A stretch of DNA of 17,558 nt from Cytauxzoon felis (taxonomy: Eukaryota > Apicomplexa > Aconoidasida > Piroplasmida > Theileriidae), in assembly GCA_020283715.1 (NCBI GenBank), contig JAIQCW010000158.1, forward strand, positions 1 through 17,558. The letters are read 5' to 3'. A program made the position numbers and the translations under genes. This document shows positions 3,117 through 17,558 of this stretch, piece by piece; within the stretch, counting starts at the first letter, position 1, and each line of letters begins with the position of its first letter. The notes below the pieces were generated by a model, which saw only the letters and a list, made by a program, of their open reading frames with translations, ran no database searches and was not told the origin of the DNA.

Positions 3117-9521
<6,405 letters not shown>

Positions 9522-10621: not shown

Positions 10622-12478
10622 ATGGTTAAAAATAAAGCATCTGGTTCTACTTTTGTTTTTAACGACAATGTCTTTGTCGATAACCGCAGATTGGCCGTAC
10701 CAGTAACACATTATGAAAATGACATGATGCTCTTTAGATTTCCCGATATTATAAAGAAAGAGATCAACTTTGATGTATCACCAGATATTAATTTTAATTA
10801 CAATGGGTCATCTGAAAGTTGTTTCATGGATGTTGTGGAGGATAATCGTAAAAAATCGCAGAGTTTATACACAAAATTGATCCAGGATGCCATGGATGAA
10901 CTGAAAATGATTGACTTTAATCGCAGAGAACGTTTGAGAATATTGGAAGAAAAACGTAAAGAACAGCTAAGGAGAGAGGAAGAGAAGAAACTTAAAGAAC
11001 AACAACAACACGTAGCTGATCTCAGGGAAGCGCAGGGACAACTAAATAAAGAAGCCACCACGGCGAGTGGAATTGTAGGCATTTCAGGTGGAACACCTAG
11101 TGGAAAAGATGGATCCTCAATGGATACTTCTTCCAATTATCTCCCTGCTGCAAGTCTAACAACTTCTAATGATCGTGGTCAGGGTGAAAGAGTAAAGGCA
11201 CCATTTGTACCTAAGAATAGATATACGGATATGTATATAAATTATTTGAATGAGTATAAGGGGTATAAATCAGAATATGATGCATTTGTTAGTATAATTA
11301 CTCAGGATATAAAATCTATAAGGATATCTATAGCTAAAAAAATTAACACTTGTATAAATACAGTAGCTGGTACTATAAAACAAGTTGAGAATACACATAA
11401 TACAATTAATAACTTGTTATGTACTTATAATGATAATCGTATAAAAATTTTTATTATCTTTCGTATTATTGAAGGTATTTTAAATTGTTGTGAATCAGGT
11501 AATCAAATTTATATCAATCCAAAATCTGTATGGCCATTTGCTCATTTAATTCGTGGTTTATGTATTTTAGATAAAAGATCATTAATAATATATTCTGTTA
11601 TGGCTGCTAAAAGGTCATGTTTTATAATTCCAAGATTATACATCTCTAATGATGAAGAACAACTTAAAAAATTACATAAATTCAATACAATTGAAACTAC
11701 CTATTGCAAATTCACACAAAGTGTTATCAAATTACATCTAGCATTCCTAGTTGTCACTAATAATATCAATTCCATCTGGTCATGGTTCGCTGGATTCATC
11801 AACTCATGCTGGAATAACGTATTTAAACTACCCCTATCATGCATACTCGTTACCGCATTCGAAACCGCCGGATTTATCGCACTCAAAACATACAATCAAC
11901 AATTCATCAAGGTATCAACACTCTATCTAAAATATAACCAATCCAGCTTCCATTCCACTAGCCGTGGAGGCCTCTTCTAATTACCTATCTCTAAAGAGTA
12001 TAGCCACTCCCGGAGATCGTGGCGATGTCAACCCCTAAGAACAGGAAAATTCTACCCGGAGGAACAAAGAATGTTAACCCGGAAGAACAGACTTCTGGTC
12101 TAGTGGATGTAACCTCAAGTGGAAGTGGAATACCTGGAAGCGATCTATGGGAGCTGGAGGGGGAAGTAAATGGAAGAGCTGACGGCAGGACGAAGAGAGG
12201 TAGATTGAACTTCAGGTGTAACATTCGCATGTTGGTTATATTTAATATATAGGTGATAAAGAATTGTGAATCATTATATGTGAGTAAATTAGATCAGGAG
12301 GGATTGAAATCACCGAATATATTAATGTATAATGGTCAATTGAAGCATTTATTTACTGAATTCAAGTATGTATAATGAATTGGATAATAAATTAATTTAC
12401 AGTAAAAACAACATGATACCGGAACCTATTGGTTATAACATGAAACATCAAGAAGAGGAGTTACGTAAAGATGTATAA
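10622..12478 (+). CDS. GLE1: mRNA export factor Gle1, three exons, with an exonic repeat insertion
   Basis: Gle1 sits at the nuclear pore and, with inositol hexakisphosphate, activates the DEAD-box ATPase Dbp5 to release exported mRNA. Exons: 10622-11911, 12253-12365, 12403-12478; GT-AG and phase-consistent, 492 residues. A charged, probably coiled-coil stretch (RRERLRILEEKRKEQLRREE and following) covers about residues 98-130. The conserved C-terminal Gle1 domain follows: the WPFAHLIRGLCILDK region, YCKFTQSVIKLHLAFLV, then WSWFAGFINSCWNNVFKLPL and FETAGFIALKTYNQQFIK, continued in exon 2 by VIKNCESLYVSKLDQEGL and in exon 3 by MIPEPIGYNMKHQEEE. Residues about 131-190 are repeat-derived and read in frame, exactly where the coiled coil would pass into the conserved domain. 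Intron 1 also has a repeat; intron 2 is 37 bp. Identification rests on the C-terminal domain, since the N-terminus is not conserved in this family. Confidence 0.9.
11012..11190 (+). repeat. Palindromic-element arms in frame within GLE1 exon 1
   Basis: The D-type arm comes first (GTAGCTGATCTCAGGGAAGC, read VADLREAQGQLNKE), then CCACGGCGAGTGG, TTTCAGGTGGA and CCTAGTGGAAAAGATGGATC, then a decayed A-type arm (TCTTCCAATTATCTCCC and GATCGTGGTCAGGGTGAAAG, read SSNYLPAAS and NDRGQGE). Both arms use the same frame as the VPS34 copies, but the order is reversed (D then A rather than A then D). There is no stop codon and no convincing splice pair around it. Confidence 0.82.
11951..12221. repeat. Palindromic element, GLE1 intron 1
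   Basis: A-type arm (CCACTAGCCGTGGAGGCC, then CTAATTACCTATCTCTAAAG, then CCACTCCCGGAGATCGTGG), three GTTCTT-type units on the opposite strand near 12028-12087, GGATGTAACCTCAAGTGG, F-type arm (CCTGGAAGCGATCTATGGGA) and CTGACGGCAGGACG. Sense orientation. Read in the NYLSLKS frame it meets TAA near 12028, so this copy could not be translated through. Confidence 0.88.
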
Positions 12479-12486
12479 TATTCATT
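12479..12486. other. 8-bp gap between convergent GLE1 and VPS34 stop codons
   Basis: The GLE1 TAA ends at 12478 and the VPS34 TAA on the other strand begins at 12487. Any 3' untranslated regions must overlap as antisense transcripts and must lie inside the neighbour's coding sequence. Confidence 0.7.
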
Positions 12487-15400
12487 TTATTTCCATGAAG
12501 ATGATATGATATGCCAAGTGTCTATAATAAATGGTGATATAGAATTTGCTGATTTATTAATTAAATTTAAAATTTCTTCTTCTAATTGTTTTTCATTTAA
12601 ATCTAATAATAATTTTTCTTTAACTGTATTTAATTTTTCTATATTGAGATTTTTTAATTTGAATTGTATAGACTGATAGAGTATTTGTAATATTAAATTG
12701 GCCTCTAATCGTATTATTTTAAATATTTTTATAAATCTCTTGATCATTAATTTAAATAATTTACTCTCTACACCACCTAATGTATTAATAAATTCCTTAG
12801 ATAATTTAAAAGGAGGTTGAGGTAAAGGTGTAGGATCATCACCAAATATAAAACTATAATCTACATGAACTATTAAACCCTCATAAGTCATCAATATATT
12901 ATGATAATGACGATCACCAACACCAAATATATACGTAAATACACTATAATCTGCCAAACTATAAATAAAATTCAACCACTTTTTAATACAATCAGAACGA
13001 ACTATAGTCCAATCACCTATCCTATTCTCTACAACATTAATTACACATGAGGTCCCTCCTTTGTCTTGCAGACAGCTCTCCACCTGGAGTCCAATCCAAC
13101 TCTCTTCGTCTTGCAGACAGCTTCCTTTATTTACCTCCCCCTTCGCTTCCCTGAGATCAGCTACGGGTTCTCCACTTGAGGTTACATCCTCACTACCTTC
13201 GCCACGATCTCCGGGAGTAGCTTTACTCTTTAGAGATAGGTAATTAGAAGAGCTGACGGCAGGACTGACCTCAGGTGGAGTGTAAAAGGATGTATTACTC
13301 TTGTAATGAGCATATGTATTGAGGAAGTTATTGATATTTTTGTATTTGTTTAGTAGATCATAGAGTGTGATTGAATTTGGTATAAATTCGATGCATCCAT
13401 CGATTTTTGAGAGTATAGTAACGTTATAATTGAGTAGATATGATTTTAATCTGTATGATTTAATAATTTTATTAATGATTTTGATTAACAATTGGCATAA
13501 ATTATCTTGTGATAAATCATCACCATATTTATACATCATTTTTATAATTTTATTATCATTAGTTAAAGTTTTTATAACTAATGGATATCTCTTCGATAGT
13601 ACAACTTTACATTCATTTGATAATAAGAATTTAAGATGTATATTAGGATTTGTAAATAATGGTACATTATTTAATCTTATCATATCACTATCATCATTAA
13701 AATGCCTTGACACAATCCTAAATAAAGACCTATTTTTATTTATACATCTACCTGGACACTCAATTTCCAAATCTCTACTTATATTCATCAATACTCTCCT
13801 AAAATCATCCTGAAGTCTAATATACTCACCCACTAGAACGCTACATTTCATTGTATCACAGTTCCAACATAAGTCAACCCTGACGTCAGATCCTCCACAC
13901 GAGGTTACATCCAATGTCGTCTTGCAGACAACATCAACCTGAGGTCCATCTTTTCCATTGCATGGAGCCTCTCTATATATTTCCCCCTCCGCTTCCCTGA
14001 GATCAGCTGCGGGTAGTCCACTTGAGGTTACATTACCACCTTCACTTCCGCCACGATCTCCGGGAGTGGCATTACCGTTTACGGGGGGATAATTGAAAGA
14101 GGCTCCACGGCGAGTGGAATCAGAGGTGGATTGGACCTCAGGTGGAGAGTCTTCATTATTGTGAGTGAGTTGTATTAATGATTCATAATATTTGAGGCAG
14201 TTTTTGTATGTATGATTATTGGATTGGCTGTATTCTGATGTTAGTATCCAATAGAGTTGTATACTGGTATTTATATCATTTAGACATGTATCGATGACAT
14301 GTTTATATAATATTTCATCATTAATTGTATTAAATATTATTTGTTTGAGATATAGTTTGATGAATTTTAAATTACACCAATTGATTAAAAATTTGTATAG
14401 AAATTGTCTTTTACTGTTGAAATCAGATGATAATAATTCTAATAAGGAGTTTGAATTAGGTTTAGTCCAATGGTTTAATATATTTTGAAATCTAATCAAT
14501 TCATTATTATTATTTAAATTTAGGAATCTTAAAAATAATGGAAGTGTATTTTTACCCCTGGATAATAAATTGGAATATTTCCATATTATCATATTAATAT
14601 ATCTATATGTTATATTCTTATACTTAAAACATGTCATAATATCATCTATATTATCTATTGTTAGTTGTATACCATATAATGGTTTATACGTTAAAATCTT
14701 TAACAATTTAAAATCATCTGGCTCAATTATACATAAATTTATCCTATCTCTACATAATGATAAAATATCACTGAATGTCAATAAAATATTCATCATCTTA
14801 TCACATATTATAAACGTATCCATTTTTATATAAAAATCATTGTCATTATACAACCAATTCAATATCGATGGTAATAATAATACCTTTGTATTCATATTTA
14901 CGTCTTCAACGTCCGTCATCGAAGATGCTGATGGAGAAGGTTTATTTGATGCTACATCTTCGTTCTTCCGGGTAGAATTCCTGTTCTTAGGGGTTGAACA
15001 TTTACGTTCTTCCGTGTAAGTAGTTTTTGTTATTCGGTGAGATTTACATGATGAATGAATGATTCGAATACGTCTAATTTTATTAATCTTTAAAGACTGT
15101 ATTTTATTAAAAATTTTATAAATGTTGAACTTTTCTTGTATATTTTTAGCTCTTGGTGGATAATTTTCATCATCACTAGTAATTGCAACATCAGATGATA
15201 CAGACTCGTTACCAGATGAATATAAATCATCCTTTATACTGTCATATGTTATCAATCTCTTATTAATATCCAAAGGTGGTATGACTATCGACGTGCCTTC
15301 AGCCATCACTACATTAGATTCAGTCAAAGGAGCTTCATGATTGGGATGGTTGGCTACACTCGAGATATTTCCACAAGACGTCCCACCTGAGGTCTCTCCA

Positions 15401-16545
15401 CTAGGCGTGGTGCCTCTTCCTTTTACTTCACCCTCCGCTTCCCGTAGATCAGCTGCGGGTAGTCCACTTGAGGTTACATTACCACCTTCACTTCCGCCAC
15501 GATCTCCGGGAGTGGCTATACTCTTTAGAGATAGGTAATTGGAAGAGCTGTCTGCAAGACGACCTCGGGTGGAAGTGGAAGACGAGGTGGATTGGACATC
15601 ATGTGGAGAGTTGCAGTTGTATATATTGAGATTGATGAAGCTAAATGTGAGGAGTATATTTGGAATATGATAGCATTGGCATGAGTTAATATGCCCGGTC
15701 TGTGCGTAATATAATATTTGTAGATAGAAATACAAAAGGTATTTGTGTATGTGTTGTTTATAGTTGATTGAAAGTGAGTGGTAACAACTTAGGATCCTTT
15801 GTATTTCAATAATTATTCTTTTATAGTGTAATGAACAGATAAGGTTGAATTTGTTGTTACAACAACACGAGTATTGATAATTTGATTCTTTATATATTAA
15901 TTGTTGATGTGTATCGTACTGATCACTGTGGTTATGGTTGAATGTGATTATACTACAAATGATGTCAGATATTAAATTCAATTTCAATTTAGAATACAGA
16001 ACACCACCAATGTATAAATTACATTTGAGATTTAATCCATCACCGGGAGCTGGATGATTAATCCCCCTGAAATATATCAGCATATCCAGTGGTATAATAG
16101 AAAATGGTAATTTATAATCTCTAATAGAGCATAATGATGAACTTAATTTGAATGGACATTTCCTCCTGTAATCTTTCTTTAATATCCTATCATCTTTATA
16201 TCTATACCAATACGTATGCCTGTGCTTAATTTTTACACTCCTACAAGTAGACACATCCTTATAGTCATTTTCAGTAGTACTTCTATTTATGAATACATCT
16301 TTATAACCATTATTGATCTTTACAGTTACAAAATTCGATATTCGTTTGTTTTTATCATCGTATAGTACAAATTCAATTATAATATCCCTTGTAATATCCT
16401 TTCCGCCATTGAAAAATATCAGCGAGCCTAAGGATAATGCATATTCATTAGTATATTTATTATAATATATCCTGGGATCTGGTGGTATTACATTCCTATT
16501 AGTATAAGCCGTATGGCAATTTATTAAATGATCTTCCAAGTTCAT
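12487..16545 (-). CDS. VPS34: Class III phosphatidylinositol 3-kinase, Vps34-like
   Basis: Makes PI3P from phosphatidylinositol, serving vesicle traffic and, in apicomplexans, apicoplast maintenance and haemoglobin uptake (family knowledge). One open frame of 1,352 codons, against 887 residues in human PIK3C3. A C2-like N-terminus (about 1-240) is followed by a helical region and a C-terminal kinase: MYKYGDDLSQDN with the ATP-contacting Lys near 1006, the catalytic loop FGVGDRHYHN with Asp near 1211, and HVDYSFIFGDDPTPLPQPPF. It ends in SSSWK, like the WRK tail of Vps34. Oddities: the activation-loop DFG reads DYS (Asp near 1229 kept) and GDDLRQD reads GDDLSQD. Four repeat blocks keep the frame open: about residues 312-388, 509-529, 799-884 and 1089-1166. 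The last may be spliced out (GT at 13298, AG at 13030-13029, phase 1/1), which would give 1,262 residues. Class III rather than class I/II or PI4K is inferred from the tail and domain order. Confidence 0.88.
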   Translation of the reverse strand: MNLEDHLINCHTAYTNRNVIPPDPRIYYNKYTNEYALSLGSLIFFNGGKDITRDIIIEFVLYDDKNKRISNFVTVKINNGYKDVFINRSTTENDYKDVSTCRSVKIKHRHTYWYRYKDDRILKKDYRRKCPFKLSSSLCSIRDYKLPFSIIPLDMLIYFRGINHPAPGDGLNLKCNLYIGGVLYSKLKLNLISDIICSIITFNHNHSDQYDTHQQLIYKESNYQYSCCCNNKFNLICSLHYKRIIIEIQRILSCYHSLSINYKQHIHKYLLYFYLQILYYAQTGHINSCQCYHIPNILLTFSFINLNIYNCNSPHDVQSTSSSTSTRGRLADSSSNYLSLKSIATPGDRGGSEGGNVTSSGLPAADLREAEGEVKGRGTTPSGETSGGTSCGNISSVANHPNHEAPLTESNVVMAEGTSIVIPPLDINKRLITYDSIKDDLYSSGNESVSSDVAITSDDENYPPRAKNIQEKFNIYKIFNKIQSLKINKIRRIRIIHSSCKSHRITKTTYTEERKCSTPKNRNSTRKNEDVASNKPSPSASSMTDVEDVNMNTKVLLLPSILNWLYNDNDFYIKMDTFIICDKMMNILLTFSDILSLCRDRINLCIIEPDDFKLLKILTYKPLYGIQLTIDNIDDIMTCFKYKNITYRYINMIIWKYSNLLSRGKNTLPLFLRFLNLNNNNELIRFQNILNHWTKPNSNSLLELLSSDFNSKRQFLYKFLINWCNLKFIKLYLKQIIFNTINDEILYKHVIDTCLNDINTSIQLYWILTSEYSQSNNHTYKNCLKYYESLIQLTHNNEDSPPEVQSTSDSTRRGASFNYPPVNGNATPGDRGGSEGGNVTSSGLPAADLREAEGEIYREAPCNGKDGPQVDVVCKTTLDVTSCGGSDVRVDLCWNCDTMKCSVLVGEYIRLQDDFRRVLMNISRDLEIECPGRCINKNRSLFRIVSRHFNDDSDMIRLNNVPLFTNPNIHLKFLLSNECKVVLSKRYPLVIKTLTNDNKIIKMMYKYGDDLSQDNLCQLLIKIINKIIKSYRLKSYLLNYNVTILSKIDGCIEFIPNSITLYDLLNKYKNINNFLNTYAHYKSNTSFYTPPEVSPAVSSSNYLSLKSKATPGDRGEGSEDVTSSGEPVADLREAKGEVNKGSCLQDEESWIGLQVESCLQDKGGTSCVINVVENRIGDWTIVRSDCIKKWLNFIYSLADYSVFTYIFGVGDRHYHNILMTYEGLIVHVDYSFIFGDDPTPLPQPPFKLSKEFINTLGGVESKLFKLMIKRFIKIFKIIRLEANLILQILYQSIQFKLKNLNIEKLNTVKEKLLLDLNEKQLEEEILNLINKSANSISPFIIDTWHIISSSWK
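13029..13298 (-). other. Candidate 270-nt intron in the VPS34 kinase domain
   Basis: The minus strand reads CAAGA|GTAATACATCC as a donor and TTAATGTTGTAG|AGAATAGG as an acceptor, with matching phase. Taking away the repeat (13048-13280) leaves 37 nt of flank, exactly the size of repeat-free introns in this window (37-55 nt). But the 270 nt are a multiple of three and contain no stop, so translation through is equally possible. Confidence 0.55.
13048..13280 (-). repeat. Palindromic element in VPS34 kinase region (intronic or exonic)
   Basis: Read along the gene: CTCCACCTGAGGTCAG, an A-type arm (TCTTCTAATTACCTATCTC, read [18 protein letters not shown]), GATGTAACCTCAAGTGGAG, a D-type arm (CCCGTAGCTGATCTCAGGGA, read [15 protein letters not shown]), then two CTGTCTGCAAGAC motifs separated by CTCCAGGTGGAG. 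Open throughout. It would lie in the loop before the helix that leads to the catalytic loop. Confidence 0.9.
13892..14149 (-). repeat. Palindromic element in frame within a VPS34 exon (helical region to kinase linker)
   Basis: Along the gene: CTCTCCACCTGAGGTCC, TTCCACTCGCCGTGGAGCC, an A-type arm with the variant mini-hairpin CCGTAAACGG (read NYPPVNGNATPGDRGGSEGG), GTAACCTCAAGTGGACTACC, a D-type arm (read [10 protein letters not shown]), GGACCTCAGGTTGATG, CTGTCTGCAAGACG-like and GTAACCTCGTGTGGAGG. 258 nt, 86 residues, no stop. No GT donor lies in the preceding ~60 nt of coding sequence, which supports a truly exonic insertion. Confidence 0.9.
14958..15018 (-). repeat. Three tandem GTTCTT-type units in frame within VPS34
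   Basis: Units begin near 14962, 14983 and 15006 on the plus strand, a spacing of 21 and 23 nt, the same rhythm as the array at the left end of the window. Along the gene they read TYTEERKCSTPKNRNSTRKN. A weak alternative is a 96-nt intron, 15047 down to 14952, with GT and AG in matching phase but a poor acceptor context. Confidence 0.75.
15382..15610 (-). repeat. Palindromic element in frame within VPS34 N-terminal half
   Basis: Along the gene: CTCTCCACATGATGTCC, CCACCCGAGGTC, CTTGCAGACAGCTC, an A-type arm (read SSNYLSLKSIATPGDRGGSE), GTAACCTCAAGTGGACTACC, a D-type arm (read [13 protein letters not shown]), CCACGCCTAGTGGAGAG and GACCTCAGGTGGGACG. A 66-bp core (15440-15505 region) is identical to the other exonic copy near 14013-14080. 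No stop, and no GT donor just upstream. Confidence 0.9.
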
Positions 16546-17339: not shown

Positions 17340-17558
17340 TTATGAGATTCTATCAAACTCGTTGAGGTGTATACGAATGAATTGAAGACGGCTGAGTGCG
17401 AGTGTAAACCTGAAATGGGTAAAATAATTTTTCAGATTCTATTAGACTCTCTCGAATGTATCTTAGATAAGTTTAATGGTTCAAAGACTAAGAATGGTAA
17501 GGCCGAAAATGGCCAAGGAACAAATCAAACTGCTCATGGATCCAAGCCAAAATTTTAC
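17338..17558 (+). pseudogene. Unidentified reading frame related to the PRP22 intron 8 passenger, open to the window end
   Basis: From 17361 one frame is open for 66 codons to the end: VEVYTNELKTAECECKPEMG, then KIIFQILLDSLECILDKFNG and a Gly/Asn/Lys-rich tail. Its first part aligns with VEEYTKVLKTSGCHCKP at 7843-7890. Just upstream a 1-nt length difference between the copies (28 against 27 nt from TATGAG to TTGAGG) breaks the frame. It does not resemble the part of a thiolase that should come next. Either it is a passenger fragment within thiolase intron 4, or the exon of another gene that continues beyond the window. Family not recognised. Confidence 0.45.

Follow-up and report, generated by a model that had tools for sequence, protein, structure and literature searches.

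Cytauxzoon felis appears to carry a nuclear hairpin repeat with shuffling modules, similar in its working to the Rickettsia palindromic elements and the GC clusters of yeast; its exonic copies appear to be filtered by reading frame and are predicted to be translated (we put the probability of this reading at about 0.75). From the sequence, one foreign peptide seems to have been incorporated into many proteins that are unrelated to each other. The window analyzed here is the whole 17,558-nucleotide stretch that forms contig C95 of a 181-contig, 8.6-Mb assembly. It was studied together with a wider sample, 233 kb of the 8.6 Mb, which comprises the window, 20 stretches of five contigs and five 3-kb loci; the sample was chosen by repeat hits, not at random, and leaves out three overlapping hit loci. 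Among PDB chains, the aldolase of this genome scores best against 3kx6, from Babesia bovis (569 bits, with 511 for the runner-up), which together with the Babesia caballi relative of VPS34 described below marks the organism as piroplasmid-like.

The element is a GC-rich imperfect palindrome of about 230 bp with diverged inverted arms (A and D) and exchangeable short tip hairpins, and 51 A-D copies are alignable over about 240 bases. Once overlaps were removed, profile searches of the 233 kb returned 99 A-arm, 131 D-arm and 24 E-family hits in 134 clusters. Most often, in 62 clusters, a D arm follows an A arm or the pair is present as its reverse complement. A real copy folds as one long hairpin of -111.8 kcal/mol, compared with -151 for an idealized sequence with matched tips. 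The inner stem varies on both sides (T-A 73, C-G 24, T-G 1; C-G 88, G-C 11, other 4). Four kinds of tip hairpin combine at random, with 22 of 75 A-D pairs alike against 22.2 expected (tip types were scored in 75 of the 77 pairs).

Repeat stretches account for 24.4 of the 233 kb (about a tenth of the sample), with a GC content of 0.508 against 0.304 elsewhere in the sample, and lie in introns, intergenic DNA and exons. Genome-wide, the 24-base core of the A arm, with at most three mismatches, is matched 962 times on one strand and 998 times on the other (1,960 in all; the backward control gave 0). A match of at least 100 bases elsewhere in the sample exists for 91 of 134 clusters, the best being 96% over 149 bases. 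Judging from these copy-to-copy identities (median best 89%), the family is of intermediate age, being neither very recent nor ancient. The E family is a second GC-rich repeat (GTTCTTCCGGGT...) that mixes with the A/D elements, in the window at 14963-15013, 30-308, 3760-3813 and 12030-12093. It is also exonic, in VPS34 and in two frames on contig C113, and reads NPEEQ / STPKN.

The genes of the window that flank the copies are of nuclear type and have GT-AG introns, which places the repeat in the nuclear rather than the mitochondrial genome. For PRP22 (a name taken over from the earlier note, which was made from the letters of the window), pieces of the gene match the Pfam families S1 and OB_NTP_bind, with Helicase_C just under the cut-off. 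GLE1 scores 26.9 bits in Pfam (cut-off 24), and its query against PDB gave nothing useful. The VPS34 frame matches PI3_PI4_kinase (Pfam, E 9.8e-33), and yeast and human Vps34 are among its best PDB matches (7.9e-40). An Rfam scan of the window gave no match. The features discussed below are:

4879-5113, minus strand: intronic copy in the PRP22 intron 4813-5224, near-twin of 6018-6276
6018-6276, minus strand: intronic copy in the PRP22 intron 5974-6473, near-twin of 4879-5113
7027-7148, plus strand: intronic sense copy in the PRP22 intron 6919-7234, with TAG at 7093 in the peptide frame
10622-11911, plus strand: first exon of GLE1, ending at a GTATC donor at 11912 (read by hand)
11011-11190, plus strand: GLE1 block, D arm at 11011-11067 (by profile), then a degenerate A-like peptide, SSNYLPAASLTTSNDRG
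11966-12193, plus strand: intronic sense composite copy in the GLE1 intron 11912-12252, A arm at 11966-12022, D arm in the repeat list, TAA at 12036
12487-16545, minus strand: VPS34 (phosphatidylinositol 3-kinase), a single open frame of 1352 aa with four repeat blocks
13048-13280, minus strand: A+D block in the VPS34 kinase domain, arms at 13116-13257, one of six frames open
13892-14149, minus strand: A+D block in VPS34, arms at 13961-14103, A arm with the alternative stem CCGTAAACGG, one of six frames open
14963-15013, minus strand: E-family repeat block in VPS34, peptide around CSTPKNRNSTRKN, by profile hit and frame
15382-15610, minus strand: A+D block in VPS34, arms at 15401-15552, one of six frames open

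The earlier note had proposed that the exonic blocks share one orientation and one stop-free frame, and this holds: in all four A/D blocks of GLE1 and VPS34, the coding frame is the sole open frame of six. In mononucleotide shuffles, a given frame is open with a frequency of 0.022 (11012-11190), 0.016 (13048-13280), 0.015 (13892-14149) and 0.033 (15382-15610). The block at 13048-13280, listed before as a possible case, is now placed in the VPS34 open frame and within the kinase domain. In this region the protein has about 110 residues where yeast Vps34 has about 15 (between residues 696 and 712), and the insert is also absent from the Babesia caballi PI3K, which has a short stretch there. This orthologue comparison rests on the B. 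caballi protein and the PDB chains because protein searches gave no others: with the full-length protein, B. caballi PI3K was the sole relative among the best 8000 candidates by shared words, and searches with a VPS34 block alone or with the kinase C-lobe returned no relatives. The E block at 14963-15013, absent from the earlier note, has three of six frames open (shuffle frequency 0.33), and its openness by itself is not improbable. The VPS34 blocks fail the flank coding-score test described below (for 15382-15610, one side favors another frame). Because these flank scores are too poor, the VPS34 case rests on the single 1352-aa frame and on homology.

The GLE1 block had been described as an A plus a D arm. 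Its D arm was recovered by profile; its other half (SSNYLPAASLTTSNDRG) is A-like at the peptide level only and was not recovered by DNA alignment. The stops reported in the sense intronic copies are real, at 7093 (TAG) and 12036 (TAA) rather than near 7089 and 12028, but stop-free copies are not confined to exons: among 32 non-exonic A-D pairs, 10 keep a single open register from the A arm through the D arm. Of 11 introns in the window that were delimited by hand, 8 contain a repeat copy. Many intronic copies had been said to lie antisense, but no such bias could be shown (8 sense and 4 antisense among the 12 assignable of 111 non-exonic clusters). The near-twins at 4879-5113 and 6018-6276 lie in separate introns of PRP22 and share 94.6% identity over 223 bp, above most copy pairs, which suggests that local duplication or conversion may have produced them.

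Copies were classed as exonic when they lie in a long frame that is open on both sides. The profile search gave 26 such rows, which were reduced to 23 clusters by dropping a plus-strand duplicate of C113_50k:184-239 and two rows in short frames, both sense (C68_60k:22035, 105 aa, and C81_L007:1412, 165 aa), which were counted instead among the 111 non-exonic clusters. Thus, 23 of the 134 clusters in the 233-kb sample are in long open exons. A or D arms are present in 22 of them, and 21 of these 22 have one orientation and frame and the same peptide reading. The exception is a lone D arm that reads antisense within a frame of 871 aa carrying a PLU-1 domain. The A-D spacing is a multiple of three in 7/7 exonic copies, and non-exonic copies fall into the three mod 3 classes as 12/13/7.

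This uniformity of frame and spacing is partly built in, because the exonic set was chosen for being open. For that reason copies were selected anew by how strongly the 120 bases flanking each side score as coding. Fifteen copies have coding-like flanks, by a threshold chosen once the scores were known; 14 of them are open and in frame, and the fifteenth is in a plain GTATGT...TTTATAG intron. The GLE1 block is the only one of the five window blocks among the 14. Nine of the 23 exonic clusters fall below the flank threshold, probably because of repeat modules in their flanks.

Genome-wide, a query with the sense peptide placed 57 of 150 matches in frames of at least 250 aa, among the matches listed (the best 150 of 4161 candidates; 150 listed of 152 tabled matches, copied by hand for counting). 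Antisense queries, counted by eye among the matches listed, gave 1/150 for D frame 1 (best 150 of 2139 candidates), 0/150 for D frame 2 plus the A arm (best 150 of 3032) and 2/150 for D frame 2 alone (best 150 of 1455); these control queries run into stops in adjoining A arms. Frames are therefore uneven genome-wide among the matches listed, and not the equal mixture of frames and orientations that the earlier note had named as speaking against it. Exonic A arms include none with an indel (0/20) and no stop, compared with 5 of 79 frameshifted and 6 stop codons in non-exonic A arms. For D arms, net frameshifts number 12/24 in exons (2 stops in the alignment) and 54/106 elsewhere (24 stops), counts that tell little because the indels are mostly at the junction to the exchangeable tip.

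Several hosts resemble housekeeping genes, and two blocks are within a conserved domain. In an ABC-F-like ATPase, the block separates the Walker A part of one nucleotide-binding domain from a later part of that domain, with 262 residues between the matched stretches compared with 86 in the PDB chain. Blocks are also present in a RecQ-like helicase, in proteins resembling Vps36 and of the Sec23/24 type, in a HAT-repeat protein and in one with matches to Toprim, helicase and 3'-5' exonuclease; 7 of 18 scanned host protein pieces lack a Pfam match. The Toprim frame (1634 aa, L011:8214 to L012:3115) also has weak polymerase A matches, and its A-arm block is at residues 997-1015. This frame presumably resembles the plastid replication protein PREX.

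We propose that the hairpin repeat spreads through the nuclear genome into introns, intergenic DNA and exons, perhaps via a hairpin DNA or RNA intermediate and with hairpin modules swapped. Exonic copies would be transcribed, left unspliced and translated as a hydrophilic insert of about 20 to 200 residues, which VPS34, GLE1, the ABC-F-like ATPase and others may tolerate. The uniformity of frame would come mainly from the loss of frame-breaking insertions, not from aimed insertion. With tips included, 12 sense and 2 antisense frames are open across 49 full copies outside exons. Because a whole element so rarely has another open frame, loss of frame-breaking insertions would give the same uniformity, and targeting is not needed to explain it. 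For the A-to-D cores of the same 49 copies there are 14 sense and 9 antisense open frames (27 copies with none open, 21 with one). All 13 simple full exonic copies are sense, with p 0.13 against whole non-exonic elements and 0.0016 against cores. The whole-element comparison would thus fit a plain filter, and the core comparison asks for more, making some extra preference possible. The density of clusters in coding relative to non-coding DNA is 0.13, near one in six; against a plain filter, this ratio is higher than predicted if an insert of 3n bases is also required.

The alternative that survives best, which we nonetheless regard as unlikely, is that the element is coding-compatible by design, with the frame kept at the level of the family, insertion aimed, or the hydrophilic sense peptide preferred over the antisense one. 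The core comparison argues for it, as do the rarity of antisense matches in long frames genome-wide (1, 0 and 2 of 150, among the matches listed) and the chemistry of the peptides, the sense peptide being hydrophilic and the antisense ones more hydrophobic. In 30 non-exonic D-only copies, moreover, open antisense frames outnumber sense frames (54 to 30, a mean of 1.8 against one per copy), yet the exonic D-only copies are 2 sense and 1 antisense, three cases that are too few to decide. Opposed to design are the value of p 0.13 for elements with their tips and ends, the existence of the antisense exonic D arm, and the non-exonic copies, which keep neither spacing nor frame. Random insertion followed by loss of frame-breaking copies is the best reading of the combined evidence, and we would expect the pattern that is seen.

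A second alternative, that the blocks are stop-free cryptic introns that are spliced out, appears very improbable. In its favor, copies are common in introns, as in the 8 of 11 in the window. A splice model was built on 20 introns (11 read by hand and 9 with standard ends out of 18 found automatically). By their best in-frame GT-AG pair, 20 of 23 exonic blocks fall short of every one of these reference introns, with scores much like those of ordinary coding DNA (which has a median of 4.1 and goes up to 17.5). For the remaining three, the best 3n pair reaches the bottom quarter of what the introns score, which also speaks for splicing. Where copies do lie in introns, the splice sites are in AT-rich sequence beyond the repeat, and spliced DNA would need no open frame. 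As a set, then, the exonic blocks look like coding DNA, although a single block may still be spliced. The earlier note had held that splicing out of all these blocks would tell against it; judged by sequence, the blocks as a set are without good splice sites. Least credible is a third alternative, in which selection maintains the peptides as a useful, domesticated module: the synonymous to non-synonymous ratio of A arms (28:53 in exons, 69:211 elsewhere) leans that way, but the difference is not significant (p 0.088), D arms show the opposite (45:74 against 230:224, p 0.013), the host proteins are unrelated, and order-promoting residues are low in the peptide (0.22 against 0.46 for the whole of VPS34).

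Mobility of the repeat is deduced from its dispersal, because DNA-level empty sites were not found and no target-site duplication was recognized (none was constant among 30 candidate end pairs read by eye, and copies are often nested). The inverted ends suggest a hairpin or foldback intermediate. A search of the genome for an integrase core gave no hit; a piggyBac model gave none either, but its control was silent too. The one reverse-transcriptase match in the genome (G000:C56:73693-74436, L030) is in a 1010-aa frame and is possibly telomerase. It is conceivable, if doubtful, that translated exonic copies are themselves donors, so that a hydrophilic frame lets the family spread through essential genes, the same module lengthens many proteins, and hairpin modules shuffle via an RNA or DNA hairpin intermediate.

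The earlier note had drawn a parallel with the Rickettsia palindromic elements. A likeness in how the two work is well supported (copies of a single family sit in frame in genes that are unrelated, and their hydrophilic peptide recurs), but entry in a coding-compatible frame does not follow from the uniform orientation and frame. Kinship is not part of the claim. Dispersed palindromic repeats that keep the frame of unrelated protein genes and bring a conserved peptide are described for Rickettsia (PMC10969869) and are seen here by sequence only. The Rickettsia elements are bacterial, of about 150 bp, in ten families, with 44 insertions reported in R. conorii (PMC10969869), unlike the present repeat of about 230 bp with about 2,000 core matches in a eukaryotic nuclear genome with introns. 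A 22-base A core had no exact match in GTDB bacterial and archaeal species genomes, nor did the element core in IMG/VR.

One yeast mitochondrial GC cluster sits inside the VAR1 gene. Like the repeat described here, these clusters are GC-rich palindromes in AT-rich DNA whose modules merge and shuffle, and their authors lean to RNA-mediated ligation and retrotransposition (PMC4478555); unlike them, the present repeat is nuclear, larger and in many exons. The hairpin elements described from sponge mitochondria are another organelle parallel (PMC2800124). Nematomorph mitochondria likewise have inverted repeats within protein-coding genes, although these are described as perfect and are mitochondrial, and palindromes interrupt coding genes in Magnusiomyces mitochondria (PMC6649704). 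The Magnusiomyces palindromes stay untranslated via ribosome bypass and would have no need of a kept frame, whereas the present copies do keep theirs. They go by the name of byp, and frame indifference of the byp type appears to be absent here, with 14 of the 15 flank-defined copies in frame and open. Paramecium exonic selfish elements are cut out of the somatic genome. Mass colonization of coding exons is the feature they share with the present repeat (PMC8354472), and MITEs share terminal inverted repeats with it. Introner elements carry splice sites, whereas the sites here are outside the arms in AT-rich DNA (in 8 window introns and one on contig C94); the repeat is therefore not an introner. 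PARCEL repeats, described from microbes including some marine algae, are coding and have dyad symmetry but are tandemly arrayed, unlike these dispersed inserts in housekeeping genes (PMC2996958). Among the papers listed in searches of the open-license PMC literature, which takes in few subscription papers and preprints, we saw none that describes such elements from the nucleus of a eukaryote.

In a survey of 64 apicomplexan genomes, the phylum is described as seemingly devoid of class II transposons, and LINE-like elements are given for some Babesia and for T. equi among the piroplasmids (PMC9141347). Against that background, about 2,000 palindromic copies, and 23 exonic clusters in 233 kb, would stand out. 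Protein-coding palindromes are already known from Rickettsia and from organelles, to which a nuclear family at such a scale would be added. If the reading is true, eukaryotic proteins can repeatedly gain the same, probably disordered, insert from selfish DNA, which offers a natural test of enzyme tolerance for long inserts within catalytic domains. It would also be a warning that gene models in such genomes may wrongly excise these blocks as introns.

Other repeated sequences were noted in the window. A 60-bp spacer unit is present at 1816-1875, 4958-5017 and 6124-6183 (97-98% alike), and its sense peptide recurs, the same or nearly so, in exonic blocks on contig C68 (33623, 49126) and just before that on C53 (939). 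Pieces of reading frame with a common motif (...C.C), one of them intronic, are found at 7808-8014 and 17352-17417 in the window and at L023:5882-5953 and L024:6571-6636. Their matches beyond the query are weak (E 5e-4 to 0.009), and they are perhaps remnants of another dispersed gene-like family.
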